Source: Pseudomonadota bacterium
GTDB lineage: Bacteria > Pseudomonadota > Gammaproteobacteria > Xanthomonadales > Xanthomonadaceae
Direction: 5' to 3'
NCBI GenBank assembly: GCA_963205415.1
Contig: CAUJJS010000229.1
Coordinates: forward strand, 1 to 40,392
DNA: 40,392 bases
Positions 5,951 through 12,246 of this stretch are shown here, piece by piece. Within the stretch, counting starts at the first letter, position 1. Every line of letters starts with the position of its first letter. Below the pieces are notes generated by a model that was not told the DNA's origin, ran no database searches, and saw only the letters and a list, made by a program, of their open reading frames with translations. Position numbers and translations under genes: made by a program.

Positions 5951-6775
5951 TCAGTCACGCGGTCTCGGCTTGTATCCCAAGGCCTGCATGTAGGTCACCT
6001 CGACCGTGGCTGGCAGCAGTCCATCGCCGGCACGAAACGTCTCATACAGCCGGGTAGCGGCGGCAAATCTGCCCTTGCCGGTGAGGCTGCGACGGCGTTG
6101 TTGCAAGGCATTGGTGCTGCCGGTGGCGCGCAGTTCCAGCAGGAGTTGCGCCAAGTTCGGATACGTCAGGGTGAAGCGTTCGCTCATCACCACCGGATTG
6201 CGAAAACCCGCCGCCAGCAAGGTGTCGCCGAGCAATTGGCTGCTGGCAAAACCGTGCACGTGGGCACGCTCGGGATCGACGTCGGCAAAGGTCTGCGCCA
6301 GTTCTTGCAAAGTGGCCGGCCCCAGGCCCGAGGCCAGCAGCACACCATCGGGCTTGAGCACCGTGCGCCACTGCAAGGCAAGGCGCGTCATGTCCTCCTG
6401 CCACGGCATGCAGAGGCTGGAAAACACCAAATCAAAACTATGTGGCGCAAAGGGCAAGGCCCGCGCATCGCCTGCGACACACGAAAATCGCGGTCGCCAG
6501 CGACCGGCGGTCTTGCGCGCCATGTGCAACATCGGCAGGGCGGAATCCAGCGCGATCACCTGCGCTCGGGGCCAACGCTGCTTCAAGGCCAAACTGGCCG
6601 TGCCAGGCCCGCAACCCAGATCGAGGATGCGTTCTGGCGCATGGGGCATGGCGTCCAGTTGTTCGAGCAGGCGCCGTTCCACTTCGCGCTGCAATACCGC
6701 GAACTGGGCATAGTGCGGTGCGGCGCGGGCAAAGGCACGGCGCACTTGCAGATGGTCGAGGGCGGGTGCAGGCAT
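5951..6775 (-). CDS. bioC: Malonyl-ACP O-methyltransferase BioC
   Basis: RAFARAAPHYAQFAVLQREVERRLLEQLD…ILDLGCGPG…FDLVFSSLCMPW; downstream of bioF-bioH. Confidence 0.88.
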   Translation of the reverse strand: MPAPALDHLQVRRAFARAAPHYAQFAVLQREVERRLLEQLDAMPHAPERILDLGCGPGTASLALKQRWPRAQVIALDSALPMLHMARKTAGRWRPRFSCVAGDARALPFAPHSFDLVFSSLCMPWQEDMTRLALQWRTVLKPDGVLLASGLGPATLQELAQTFADVDPERAHVHGFASSQLLGDTLLAAGFRNPVVMSERFTLTYPNLAQLLLELRATGSTNALQQRRRSLTGKGRFAAATRLYETFRAGDGLLPATVEVTYMQALGYKPRPRD

Positions 6776-6819: not shown

Positions 6820-7605
6820 TCAAGCGCGTGTCAGTTCGTGAACGGCCTCGGCCACGACCTCGGGGTGCGACAGGAACGGCATGTGGCCGCTGTCCAATTC
6901 GAGATAGCGGGCGTTGCTGCGATGGGCCGCCCATTGCATGGCCTGTGTGCGCACCATTCGATCGCGCCGGCCGGCGATCCAGACGGATGGCAAATCCAGT
7001 GTGGCAAGCTCGTCGCGCAGATCGTGTCGTTGCAACAGTTCAAGCCCCGCGAACACGTGATCCGTGTCGGGTGCGCCGTAACGAAGCACCTCCTCGCGCA
7101 AGGCGTGCAGGGCCGCCGGTGTGATGGCACTGCCACGGGTTTCCAGATCGAGAAAGCCCTCGATCGTGGCGACAAAGCGCCGCTCAAGACCCTCGGCAAA
7201 GGCACGAAACACGGCTTCATCCACACCGTAGGGCCAATCGGGTGCGCGCGTGAATCGTGGGCTGGAGGCGACCATCAACAAGCCGGCAAGGCGCGGCCGA
7301 TGGCGCAGGGCGGCGTGCAAGGCCAGCAAACCCCCCAAGGACCAGCCCAGCCAGATCGCCTGATCGGGCACGCGTTCGATGAGTGCATCGACAAAGGCAT
7401 CGGCTTCGAGTCGGGCGGTGCCGCGACTGCGGCCGTGGCCGGGCAGATCGACACTGTAAAGGCAGTGCGATGCCGACAAGTGTTCGCGCAGGTTCGCAAA
7501 TATGCCGGAGTGCAGTGCCCAACCGTGGAAGAGCACGAGCGGCGGACCATGGCCTTCGACCGCGATGTGGAGCGGTGCTGAACCCATCGTGCTGGCGAGG
7601 CTCAC
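6820..7605 (-). CDS. bioH: Pimeloyl-ACP methyl ester carboxylesterase BioH
   Basis: alpha/beta hydrolase, LVLFHGWALHSGIF, GWSLGG nucleophile, SGHMPFLSHP. Confidence 0.88.
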   Translation of the reverse strand: MSLASTMGSAPLHIAVEGHGPPLVLFHGWALHSGIFANLREHLSASHCLYSVDLPGHGRSRGTARLEADAFVDALIERVPDQAIWLGWSLGGLLALHAALRHRPRLAGLLMVASSPRFTRAPDWPYGVDEAVFRAFAEGLERRFVATIEGFLDLETRGSAITPAALHALREEVLRYGAPDTDHVFAGLELLQRHDLRDELATLDLPSVWIAGRRDRMVRTQAMQWAAHRSNARYLELDSGHMPFLSHPEVVAEAVHELTRA

Positions 7606-8834
7606 GTGTCCGAGTCGTCCGACACGCGCTGCATGACTTCGGCCAAGGCTTCAAGCAAGGCGTCGATGTCCTGTTCCTCGTGCGCGGCGCTCAAGGTGAT
7701 GCGCAGGCGCGCCCGGCCATCGGGCACGAAGGGTGGACGCACAGCGCTGACCAGAAAACCGGCGCGCTCCAGATGACGGGCGGCGGCCAAGGTCGCGCTG
7801 CTGCTGCCCAGGAGCAGCGGTTGAATGGCCGTGGCCGAATCCATCAAGTCGATATCGAGCTGCTGCGCGCCACGCCGCAGACGCGCCACCAGTGCCGCCA
7901 GCTTGTAGCGACGCCAAGTTTCGCCGCGTGCGAGGGCCAGCGCCTTGCTCGCAGCCGTCGCAAGCGCCGGTGGCGGTGGGCTGGAATAGAGGTAGGCGCG
8001 GGCGGTTTCGGTGATGTGTTCGATCAGGGCCTTCGAGCCGACCAGCACCGCGCCAGCGCAGCCCAGGGCGCGGCTGAGAGAAATCAGTTGCAGTGGCACT
8101 TCACGCTCACCCAAACCGGCCATGGCCACGCTGCCACGGCCGTCGGGACCGATCGCGCCGGTGCCGTGGGCATCATCGACGTACAAGCTGGCGTTCTCGG
8201 TGCGTGCCAATACCGCCAGCATCTTCAGCGGCGCCATGTCGCCATCGAGCGCAAAGATGCCGTGGGTGGCGAGTAGGGCGGCCGATTGCGGACGGCTGCG
8301 CAGCGCACGCATGGCGCCTTCCGCGGCCAGATGCGGATAATCTCGAACCTCAGCGCCGGCCAAACGTGCGGCATCGAAGAGGCTGCCATGGTTGTGGCGA
8401 TCCTGCACACTGAGCTCGCCATCGCGCAGCAAGGTCTGCATCACCGCCAGATTGGCGACATAGGCCGAGCCGAACATCAGGCCTCGCGCATAACCTTGCC
8501 ACTGCGCCACCGCGTCTTCGAGTTCACGCTGGGCGCGAAAGCCACTGGCGCTCAGGTGTGAAAGGCCGGCGCCCACACCCAGCCACGCCGCCGACTCCTG
8601 CAGGCCGGCGATGACTTCAGGATGCTGGGCCAGACCAAGATAATCACTGCCGCTGAAGTTGCGCAGCACGCGACCCTCGATCTCCACGGCCATGCCTTCA
8701 CGCGCAACGATGTGACCTGCGCCTCGCTGTGTCGCGTGGCGCGCGCCGGATCGGGCTTCGGCCTCGGTGCGAGCCGCAAGCGTCGGACGTGGATCACGCC
8801 GCGCGGAGGATTGGGGTGGTCGCGGACTGGGCAT
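7602..8834 (-). CDS. bioF: 8-amino-7-oxononanoate synthase (BioF) homologue lacking the PLP lysine (SLSRALG)
   Basis: NFSGSDYLGLAQHPEV, VDDAHGTGAIGPDGRG, ATAIQPLLLG, RPPFVPDGRARLRITLSAAH; operon position; overlaps bioH start. Confidence 0.85.
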   Translation of the reverse strand: MPSPRPPQSSARRDPRPTLAARTEAEARSGARHATQRGAGHIVAREGMAVEIEGRVLRNFSGSDYLGLAQHPEVIAGLQESAAWLGVGAGLSHLSASGFRAQRELEDAVAQWQGYARGLMFGSAYVANLAVMQTLLRDGELSVQDRHNHGSLFDAARLAGAEVRDYPHLAAEGAMRALRSRPQSAALLATHGIFALDGDMAPLKMLAVLARTENASLYVDDAHGTGAIGPDGRGSVAMAGLGEREVPLQLISLSRALGCAGAVLVGSKALIEHITETARAYLYSSPPPPALATAASKALALARGETWRRYKLAALVARLRRGAQQLDIDLMDSATAIQPLLLGSSSATLAAARHLERAGFLVSAVRPPFVPDGRARLRITLSAAHEEQDIDALLEALAEVMQRVSDDSDT

Positions 8835-8893
8835 CAACTTTGATTGCGGTGCGGGGCCGGTGGCACAGTGTCGGAAGTCTGGAAAACACACCG

Positions 8894-9625
8894 ATGCCTG
8901 TCAACCTTCCACCCTTCTGGCTTCGTGCCGCCACCGCCGTGACGCAGGCCTTGTTGCCGTCGCGTTGCCTGCTGTGCGGCGAATCGGCCAAGCGTGTGGA
9001 CCTGTGTGAAGCCTGTTGTCGCGCACTGATCGGCAATGCCCCGGCTTGCGCACAGTGCGCCTTGCCCTTGCCATCCGCCGAAGCGGCCTGTGGTGCCTGT
9101 TTGCGCGATCTGCCACCGTTTTCGCAGACGTTCGCGGTGTGGCGCTACGAAGCCGCGCTCGCGCAATTGCTGCCGCGTTTCAAGTTTCACCACGACTTGG
9201 CGGCAGGCAGGGTGCTGGCGGAACTGGCCTTGCCGATCCTTCGCCAGTGGCCGGGTTGGCAGGGCGTGGACCGCATGATTCCCGTGCCCCTGCATTCAAG
9301 TCGATTGGCGCAACGCGGCTACAACCAAGCGCTGGAGTGGGCCAAACCGCTGGCCCGTGCCTTGCCGCTGCGACTCGATCACGCCGGTCTGCGTCGCATT
9401 CGTGCCACGGCTGCGCAAACCGAGCTCGATGCGGTGGCGCGGCGACGCAATCTTCGCGGTGCCTTTGAGGCCAGCCCACTGCACGGTGAGGTGGTCGTGT
9501 TGGTCGATGATGTCGTCACCACCGGAGCCACGGTCCGCGAAGCCACGCGCAGCCTGTTGCGTGCCGGAGCGCGTGAAGTGCGCGTGCTGGCGATCGCACG
9601 CGCACCCGAGCCGGCGCCGCGCTGA
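8894..9625 (+). CDS. comF: ComF family protein (phosphoribosyltransferase-like, double Cys4 N-terminus)
   Basis: CLLCGESAKRVDLCEACCRAL…CAQCALPL…CGACLRD; VVVLVDDVVTTGATVRE PRT motif. Confidence 0.93.
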   Translation: MPVNLPPFWLRAATAVTQALLPSRCLLCGESAKRVDLCEACCRALIGNAPACAQCALPLPSAEAACGACLRDLPPFSQTFAVWRYEAALAQLLPRFKFHHDLAAGRVLAELALPILRQWPGWQGVDRMIPVPLHSSRLAQRGYNQALEWAKPLARALPLRLDHAGLRRIRATAAQTELDAVARRRNLRGAFEASPLHGEVVVLVDDVVTTGATVREATRSLLRAGAREVRVLAIARAPEPAPR

Positions 9626-9706
9626 GTTACGGACCTGCGGGTGTCATCCAAGCCGTAGGCGAACGGTGCGAAGCGTCTGTGCTTGGCGTCGGCCGTCGCG
9701 TTGGTT

Positions 9707-10132
9707 TTACGGCAATTTTGGGAACTCGACATCCCGACAGATGACCCGCGTGGCGCACCCACGGCTGCCCCAGTCGATGGCGATCCAAGCGTAGGGGCCG
9801 TGGCCGGCGTCCGGATCGTCACCTTCGATGGGCGCATCCGTGCGCTGATAGCGATCGGTGCGGCTGTAGCGGGTGCATGGACTTCCGCCATCGTCACACT
9901 GCGTCCATTTGTTGCTGCGTCGATCGCCCGGTGTCGGTTCGACTGGGAAGGAAGGCGCGCTCTGGCCCTTTGCCATGGCCAGCGAAGCATCAAGGTGATC
10001 CTGGGTGGAGTGTGCCGCCAATTCCTGTGCGTCCTTGCTTGGATTTTGGGCGCCACGGGCATGGGCCAGTGCCCACGGCGACGCCAAACCCATACCCAGC
10101 AAGCCCCACAACACGATCGACGATGAACGCAT
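9707..10132 (-). CDS. Secreted hypothetical protein
   Basis: MRSSSIVLWGLLGMGLASPWALAHARG signal peptide; two Cys pairs in mature part; no family recognised. Confidence 0.6.
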   Translation of the reverse strand: MRSSSIVLWGLLGMGLASPWALAHARGAQNPSKDAQELAAHSTQDHLDASLAMAKGQSAPSFPVEPTPGDRRSNKWTQCDDGGSPCTRYSRTDRYQRTDAPIEGDDPDAGHGPYAWIAIDWGSRGCATRVICRDVEFPKLP

Positions 10133-10224
10133 GTTCTGATTTCCTAGAGTTTCGAACCCCTGCGGCCAACACTCTAGCCGCGTTTCTCGGGAGGGAGGCA
10201 AGGAAATGCGGTCTGATTCCGCGC

Positions 10225-11037
10225 TCAACGCTGACAGCGTGGACAGTACACCGTGGCGCGCTGGCCCCAATCGGCGGCGCGCAGCGGGGTTCCACAGTGG
10301 TGGCAGGGTTTGTCGGCGCGACCGTACACATCCAGTTGCTGGGCAAAGTAGCCGGGAAGGCCATCGGGCTTGAGAAAATCACGCAAGGTGGTGCCGCCGC
10401 GTGTGATGGCTTCGCCCAGTACCTGCTTGACCGCGATCACCAGTCGTTCCAAGCGCGCCATCGATACCCGACCGGCTGCGCGCGCGGGATGGATGCCAGC
10501 GCGGAACAGGGCCTCGGCGGCGTAGATATTGCCGACGCCCACGACGATGCGCTGATCCATCAGGACGTGCTTGATCGGCGCGCTGCGGCCGTGTGCGCGT
10601 GCCGCCAGATACGCGGCATCGAAGTCTTCCGACAGTGGTTCCGGGCCCAAGGATTCGAGCAAGGGATGCACTTGGCCTTCTGGCTGCCACAACACCGCAC
10701 CGAAGCGACGTGGATCATTCAGGCGCAAGGCGTGACCATCGTCCAGACACAGATCGACATGATCGTGCGGGCCTGCCGCAAGCGTGGCATCCACCACGCG
10801 CAGATGCCCACTCATGCCCAGATGCAACACCACGCTGCCGCGGTCGGCATCGAGCAAGAGATATTTCGCGCGACGACGCACGCCGGCAATGCCTTGGCCG
10901 GGAAGTTCGTCGCGGACTTCATCGGCGATGGGCCAACGCAGATCGCGACGACGCAGCACGCTGCCGATCACGCGACGACCGATCAGGAGCGGTGCCAGCC
11001 CGGCACGCGTGGTTTCCACTTCAGGCAGTTCCGGCAT
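10225..11037 (-). CDS. mutM: Formamidopyrimidine-DNA glycosylase
   Basis: MPELPEVETTRAGL N-terminus; C-terminal zinc finger CHHCG…YCPRCQR. Confidence 0.95.
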   Translation of the reverse strand: MPELPEVETTRAGLAPLLIGRRVIGSVLRRRDLRWPIADEVRDELPGQGIAGVRRRAKYLLLDADRGSVVLHLGMSGHLRVVDATLAAGPHDHVDLCLDDGHALRLNDPRRFGAVLWQPEGQVHPLLESLGPEPLSEDFDAAYLAARAHGRSAPIKHVLMDQRIVVGVGNIYAAEALFRAGIHPARAAGRVSMARLERLVIAVKQVLGEAITRGGTTLRDFLKPDGLPGYFAQQLDVYGRADKPCHHCGTPLRAADWGQRATVYCPRCQR

Positions 11038-11232
11038 GGCAAGTCCAATGGCAAACAATCGTCATTGTGCCGAGCCTGCACATGACAGGTTCGGGCGCGG
11101 TTGCGATGATGGTAAGGAGCCTGCTCGGCAGAAGCCTTCCGGCTGCAACCGCGCTCTCATCCATAGGCCTATGGCGATATCGCGGTTTCGCTATCGAAAG
11201 TTCCTGCCGCGCAGGCTCCCAGGGAGAATCCA

Positions 11233-11592
11233 ATGCCGCTCATCACGCGCCGAGGCGCAGTCCATCGATCGTTCATTTGCTTGGCGCTGTGGGCAAGCCT
11301 GCCCGCGCTGGCGCAGGATCGTGCCGACTACCTGCAGCGTTTCGATGCCGATGGCAATGCCCGCGTGTCCCTGCGCGAGTATGAGGACTACATGAGTCGC
11401 AGCTTTCGTGCGATGGATCGCAATGGCGATGGACGCTTGATGCCGGGCGAATTGCCCAGCGGCGTGCGTGCGCGCGGACACACCACGCTGGAGGCCTATT
11501 TGCGCGCGTTGGCGCGAACGTTCGACCTGCTCGACGTCAACAACGATGGCCAGCTCGATGCGCGGGAACTGACCGCACCGCCGCCGCGCTGA
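11233..11592 (+). CDS. Secreted EF-hand calcium-binding protein
   Basis: Signal peptide …LPALAQ; DADGNARVSLREYE, DRNGDGRLMPGEL, DVNNDGQLDAREL. Confidence 0.85.
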   Translation: MPLITRRGAVHRSFICLALWASLPALAQDRADYLQRFDADGNARVSLREYEDYMSRSFRAMDRNGDGRLMPGELPSGVRARGHTTLEAYLRALARTFDLLDVNNDGQLDARELTAPPPR

Positions 11593-11595
11593 ATC

Positions 11596-12246
11596 TCAGT
11601 TGCGGCGGCGCTGGTAGGCACGCAAGAACATCCGCACCACGGCTTCGACGTGGGCATCCACATTGCTGCCGTGACGGCAACCGCTGGCACCGCACAGCAT
11701 GAAGAGCGTGATCTCGCCTTTGAGCAGGCTGATGAATTGACTGGCGGCCTCGCGGCAGTCCTCGATCTCCAGTTCGTCACGGGCCACCGCAGCCTGAAGA
11801 AAGGTTTCCAGACTCGCCAGGATTCGAGCGCCGCTGGCCGCCCAGAAGGCCGGGCCAAGACGTTCGGCATTGCGTACATCGGCAATCAACATGCGGTGCA
11901 GGGCGATGGAGTCGTCACTGGCCAACAGGTCGTGAAAACGGCGGCCGATCTCGCGCAGGGCGCGTTCGATCGGCGCGCGCTTCGGCGGCGCAAACAAGGC
12001 GTCGGGCACCTGCTTGCGGCAGTGTTCCTCGATGGCGGTGATGAACAGCGCGTCCTTGTCCTGGAAGTGGCTGTAGACGGTGAGCTTGGACACGCCGGCT
12101 TCGGCGGCGATCTGCTCGACGCTGGTGCCGTCGAAGCCTGAGCGCAGGAACAGGCACTTGGCCGCGTCGAGGATGGCGTGGCGCTTTTTCAGACTTTTGG
12201 GACGGCCAGGTCCGGGTTTGGGGTTCAGCTCAGGCATGGAAGGCAT
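11596..12246 (-). CDS. TetR/AcrR family transcriptional regulator
   Basis: ILDAAKCLFLRSGFDGTSVEQIAAEAGVSKLTVYSHFQDKDALF; divergent to RND efflux genes. Confidence 0.92.
   Translation of the reverse strand: MPSMPELNPKPGPGRPKSLKKRHAILDAAKCLFLRSGFDGTSVEQIAAEAGVSKLTVYSHFQDKDALFITAIEEHCRKQVPDALFAPPKRAPIERALREIGRRFHDLLASDDSIALHRMLIADVRNAERLGPAFWAASGARILASLETFLQAAVARDELEIEDCREAASQFISLLKGEITLFMLCGASGCRHGSNVDAHVEAVVRMFLRAYQRRRN

Follow-up and report, generated by a model that had tools for sequence, protein, structure and literature searches.

Why would a bacterium keep, in its ancestral operon position, a gene for 8-amino-7-oxononanoate synthase (AONS, or BioF) whose product lacks the PLP Schiff-base lysine? 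The question is raised by the window analysed here, a stretch of 40,392 nucleotides from a member of the Xanthomonadaceae (genome G000), in which the minus strand at 7602..8834 encodes a lysine-less BioF homologue of 410 amino acids that we call BioF*. The frame is open over 7602..8891 of the same strand, the ATG at 8834 giving 410 amino acids and a GTG at 8891 offering an alternative start. By overall sequence BioF* belongs with the AONS proteins (HMMER; best family TIGR00858, E 6.5e-110) and is 36-38% identical to E. coli BioF (1bs0/1dje/8dle), but its score of 367 bits is below the curated equivalog cut-off of 426 bits. An AlphaFold2 model, built from 41 sequences, has the AONS fold (pLDDT 87), and its best Foldseek matches are AONS structures (1dje, with an rmsd of 2.0; also 8dle, 1bs0 and 5vnx). 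Kbl (2-amino-3-ketobutyrate CoA ligase) belongs to the same superfamily and is represented by a single copy with the lysine in the G000 assembly (contig C79) and in relatives, but it is ~28-30% identical to BioF*, lies at another locus and keeps the LGKALG motif.

The replacement of the PLP lysine by arginine, which was the core of the original prediction, is borne out by an alignment made with HMMER between BioF* and E. coli BioF (1bs0, 8dle), in which 'lislsralgcaga' of the query falls on 'vvtfgkgfgvsga' and Arg255 (CGC, 8070..8072) on Lys236. Alignment and codon reading identify four further substitutions on the same minus strand: Ser254 (AGC, 8073..8075) at the invariant Gly235, Ser63 (AGT, 8646..8648) at Asn47, Ala124 (GCC, 8463..8465) at Gly108, and Ala195 (GCG, 8250..8252) at Ser179. 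The motif changes that had been remarked upon earlier are likewise real, with IFALDGD replacing VFSMDGD and GLSHLSASGF replacing a SHLVCGHH-type loop. Because the alignment and the model of the AONS fold agree, Lys236 is missing rather than moved, and a lysine elsewhere in the fold, which had been proposed as a structural check, can be dismissed. Sequencing error, discounted from the start, is ruled out by the five changed sites and by the presence of the trait in relatives.

Nine lysine-less BioFs were found within one family, those of G000 and of eight relatives (G001, G078, G168, G344, G361, G428, G430 and G474); the gene order of these genomes points to gammaproteobacteria of Xanthomonadales type. 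Nine is a lower bound: 376 of the 395 sampled family genomes have a BioF, most of them unread at the lysine position. The BioF of G001, which belongs to the same genus as G000, is 60-64% identical to BioF* and has LDTALG in place of LGKALG. When the pattern L-D-[TA]-A-L-G-xx-G-A was searched over the 395 genomes, the 30 matches fetched as loci included BioF only in G001, G168 and G344; the search also matched G078, whose lysine-less BioF was known already from direct reading. A contig scan for relatives returned BioFs of Nitrospira and Gemmatimonadota, all lysine-bearing, with close kin absent from the matches. The lysine is present, in motifs resembling LGKALG, in all 87 lysine-bearing relatives from the family or order that were aligned, and in 129 of 132 BioFs in a separate reading of that position. 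A full-text literature search, with subscription papers mostly outside its coverage, found no report of a lysine-less BioF.

Comparison of the nine proteins reveals a consistent pattern of loss. Five of 78 near-invariant columns are changed in every one of them, namely N47, G108, S179, G235 and K236 (E. coli numbering), and active-site positions are enriched for changes occurring in at least five of the nine (Fisher p 0.0009, the active-site positions being those of E. coli AONS). Among lysine-bearing BioFs a median of 0, and a maximum of 4, of the 78 columns are changed, against 18 in BioF* of the window. To the question of whether the arginine itself is conserved, the answer is divided: the lysine has been lost in all nine genomes, but its position is occupied by R, T, A, N or H. 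Gly235 has become Asp or Glu in eight proteins and Ser in that of the window. By the established family chemistry, a protein that has lost K236, N47 and S179 is very unlikely to carry out normal AONS catalysis, and from these substitutions we infer that BioF* has no AONS activity, so that the earlier suggestion of an inactive protein is well supported by the five near-invariant active-site positions that have changed.

It is nevertheless conceivable that BioF* is an active AONS that employs another residue, or free PLP, in place of the Schiff-base lysine. BioF* of the window, like E. coli BioF, has H133, D204, H207 and R349 (as His149, Asp220, His223 and Arg366), and through these it might still bind PLP. 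The remaining lysine-less BioFs do not retain the full set, however: H133 is gone from four of them, and the loss of N47, S179 and K236 from all nine, coupled with the absence of bioA and bioD, the users of the AONS product, renders such activity highly improbable. In the BioF of G001 (locus coordinates 10730-11791), Ser also replaces the first Asp of VDDAHG, which corresponds to E. coli D204.

The number of times that the lysine was lost can be approached from the tree, in which the BioFs of G000 and G001 group with the lysine-bearing BioFs of G065 and G066, well separated from the remaining lysine-less proteins. Forcing all nine into one clade costs 51 log-likelihood units and is not rejected when the trait columns and long branches are included (p-AU 0.074); when the trait columns and long-branch rows are removed, the same constraint costs 67 units (p-AU 0.0046). 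Because a single clade is rejected under the latter conditions, the better, and probable, reading is that two or more losses of the lysine took place. A single inherited origin is disfavoured by these tests, and even G000 and G001, with R and T respectively, could represent separate losses.

The surroundings of BioF* are largely those expected of a bioF gene. Directly downstream lies bioH (6820..7605, minus strand; 235 bits against a cut-off of 207), with its Ser/Asp/His triad motifs intact and its GTG start overlapping the bioF* stop (GTGA), followed by bioC (5951..6775, minus strand; 193 bits against a cut-off of 185), whose product lacks a conserved C-terminal tail of ~20 amino acids seen in other BioC proteins of the family. 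On the other side is a divergent comF-like gene (8894..9625, plus strand). The original prediction described this as the normal locus, which holds for bioF-bioH-bioC beside comF but not for bioB: lysine-bearing relatives have this gene between comF and bioF, and here it is missing. The order in lysine-less genomes is a divergent comF and then bioF*-bioH-(SDR)-bioC; only G078 and G474 retain bioB in it. In all nine genomes the lysine-less BioF occupies the ancestral slot between comF and bioH-bioC, which rules out a paralogue beside a normal bioF, and the gene in the window is most likely the vertically inherited bioF of its lineage, now a pseudoenzyme.

The operon partners have largely been kept. 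BioH has its triad motifs in all nine lysine-less genomes and BioC is present in eight, similar to the BioC of lysine-bearing relatives except for the tail missing in the window. The exception is G001, in which bioH is followed not by bioC but by ribosomal protein genes on the other strand; because bioC is absent from this locus, a partnership between BioF* and BioC would not be universal. In lysine-less G344 (locus coordinates 9454-10236), and likewise in G030, a lysine-bearing member of its genus, bioH and bioC are separated by a short-chain dehydrogenase gene.

The rest of the biotin pathway differs between the two groups of genomes. Neither bioA nor bioD was found in any of the eight relatives with a lysine-less BioF, and of the eight only G078 and G474 yielded bioB, such that all three genes are absent from G001 and from five more, including the one-contig genome G344. 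BioA-like and BioD-like matches, the BioA divergent in some, were present in all 16 lysine-bearing genomes tested (G002, G003, G006, G008, G009, G010, G012, G015, G017, G021, G025, G030, G032, G420, G439 and G468). Within this lysine-bearing set, the bioF of G420 (a one-contig genome) and that of G439 each match as two segments lying in different frames, which may reflect frameshifts, and G025 has two bioF genes on separate contigs. A bacterium with bioB alone can use desthiobiotin (PMC9561691). From these gene contents we infer that the lysine-less hosts are biotin auxotrophs, as had been suggested for the host of the window; the absence of bioA, bioB and bioD from G001 and five other genomes supports that suggestion well at the sequence level.

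The genome of the window itself calls for separate treatment. The G000 assembly (273 contigs, 85.5% complete, 3.8% contamination) has its only bioA, bioB and bioD, together with a lysine-bearing BioF2 (LGKAAG), on contig C254, in a bioA-bioF2-bioD-bioB cluster within 48001-68000. The tetranucleotide pattern of C254 differs from those of the window and of most other G000 contigs read, and its GpsA and CoaD show ~50% identity to their counterparts in each family member, G001 included. The housekeeping genes of C254 follow a Burkholderiales-like order, and the contig is a probable contaminant from the Burkholderiales; in composition, contig C199 resembles it. Counting against contamination, G000 yielded no further gpsA or coaD, a gap that could stem from the incompleteness of the assembly, although this falls short of proof. 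Should C254 be native, G000 would be prototrophic for biotin and would have a second AONS; what is concluded for the eight relatives would still hold.

The standing of C254 bears directly on the earlier idea that BioF* is a lysine-less partner of a second AONS encoded elsewhere. Precedent exists in eukaryotic serine palmitoyltransferase, whose LCB1/SPT1 subunit is an alpha-oxoamine synthase fold without the PLP lysine that is kept by selection and pairs with the lysine-bearing SPT2 (PMC6148460), and BioF2 could supply such a partner in the window's assembly. Unlike LCB1, which needs its lysine-bearing partner, the lysine-less BioFs of the relatives have none of BioF type that we could find, the only other AONS-like protein found being of Kbl type, and their origins are separate from that of LCB1. 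With the one second BioF lying on a probable contaminant, the idea is not supported, and we hold out very little chance for a subunit of this kind.

Alternatively, bioF* might simply be a functionless remnant, held open by its translational coupling to bioH and by the short time available for decay. The loss of the downstream pathway, the overlap of the bioF* stop with the bioH start in the window, and the complete absence of bioF and further bio genes from G004 are all in keeping with such decay. Pairwise codon models (dN/dS, with an LRT against a dN/dS of 1) give a different picture. The bioF* genes of G168 and G428, both with LDAALG, have a dN/dS of 0.068 (LRT 138), and those of G361 and G430, both with LEHA[LF]G, a dN/dS of 0.113 (LRT 175). 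Because each pair shares its altered motif, its divergence postdates the loss of the lysine. Values are 0.09-0.20 for other lysine-less pairs and 0.09-0.17 for lysine-bearing pairs; misaligned pairs involving the bioH of G344 were disregarded. The G000/G001 pair yields 0.094, but with a dS of ~3.3 this value is saturated and not firm, and the two residues differ (R and T); selection after the loss is thus best shown in a genus other than that of the window.

Since coupling selects only for an open frame and not for particular amino acids, it is insufficient by itself to account for such low dN/dS. The bioF frames are intact in all nine genomes, and neither a dN/dS near 1 nor a broken frame, as a decaying pseudogene would have, was encountered (range 0.07-0.20 in the other genus). 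bioF* is not decaying, and its fold and most of its sequence are under purifying selection, which leaves a functionless remnant quite improbable. Compared with the original prediction, the trait extends from one gene to something common to a genus, probably with more than one origin, under purifying selection and associated with the loss of bioA and bioD.

What, then, might be selected? One answer is a new enzyme, in which the AONS fold without its Schiff-base lysine would catalyse some other reaction, with acyl-ACP or a further compound as its substrate, possibly by way of the acidic residue at position 235. Strong purifying selection, the Asp or Glu at this position in eight of nine proteins from separate lineages, and the retention of BioH and, mostly, of BioC would all suit such an enzyme. 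However, the window has Ser at 235, no new catalytic set is conserved (the lysine position being R, T, A, N or H), and the substitutions common to all nine have the look of losses, such that a new catalytic activity seems unlikely.

We slightly favour the view that BioF* is a catalytically dead BioF kept in predicted biotin auxotrophs for a role other than AONS activity, beside BioH and BioC. In lineages without the downstream bioA and bioD (and mostly without bioB), the catalytic lysine K236 and the residues around it (N47, G108, S179 and G235) would have been replaced, leaving a BioF* unable to act as a normal 8-amino-7-oxononanoate synthase. Purifying selection still maintains the fold and most of the sequence. 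The product would be a non-catalytic, BioF-shaped protein acting with its operon partners. A role beside BioH and BioC is suggested because BioF* is under selection and both partners have been kept; that BioF* binds the acyl-ACP handled by BioH and BioC is our guess. Somewhat more tentative, and a proposition that we would not yet back, is that at least two lineages abandoning biotin synthesis independently made their BioF lysine-less, with a new, selected, non-PLP function in the acyl-ACP chemistry of BioH and BioC.

Were this so, these proteins would constitute a bacterial class of pseudoenzymes derived from a textbook vitamin enzyme. Because the presence of genes is the usual basis for scoring vitamin pathways, the genomes in question would be counted as bioF-positive although their BioF has almost certainly lost AONS activity. 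Should the function be real, its repeated origins would provide a natural series for tracing the path from PLP enzyme to pseudoenzyme, and for asking why BioH and BioC outlive their own pathway.
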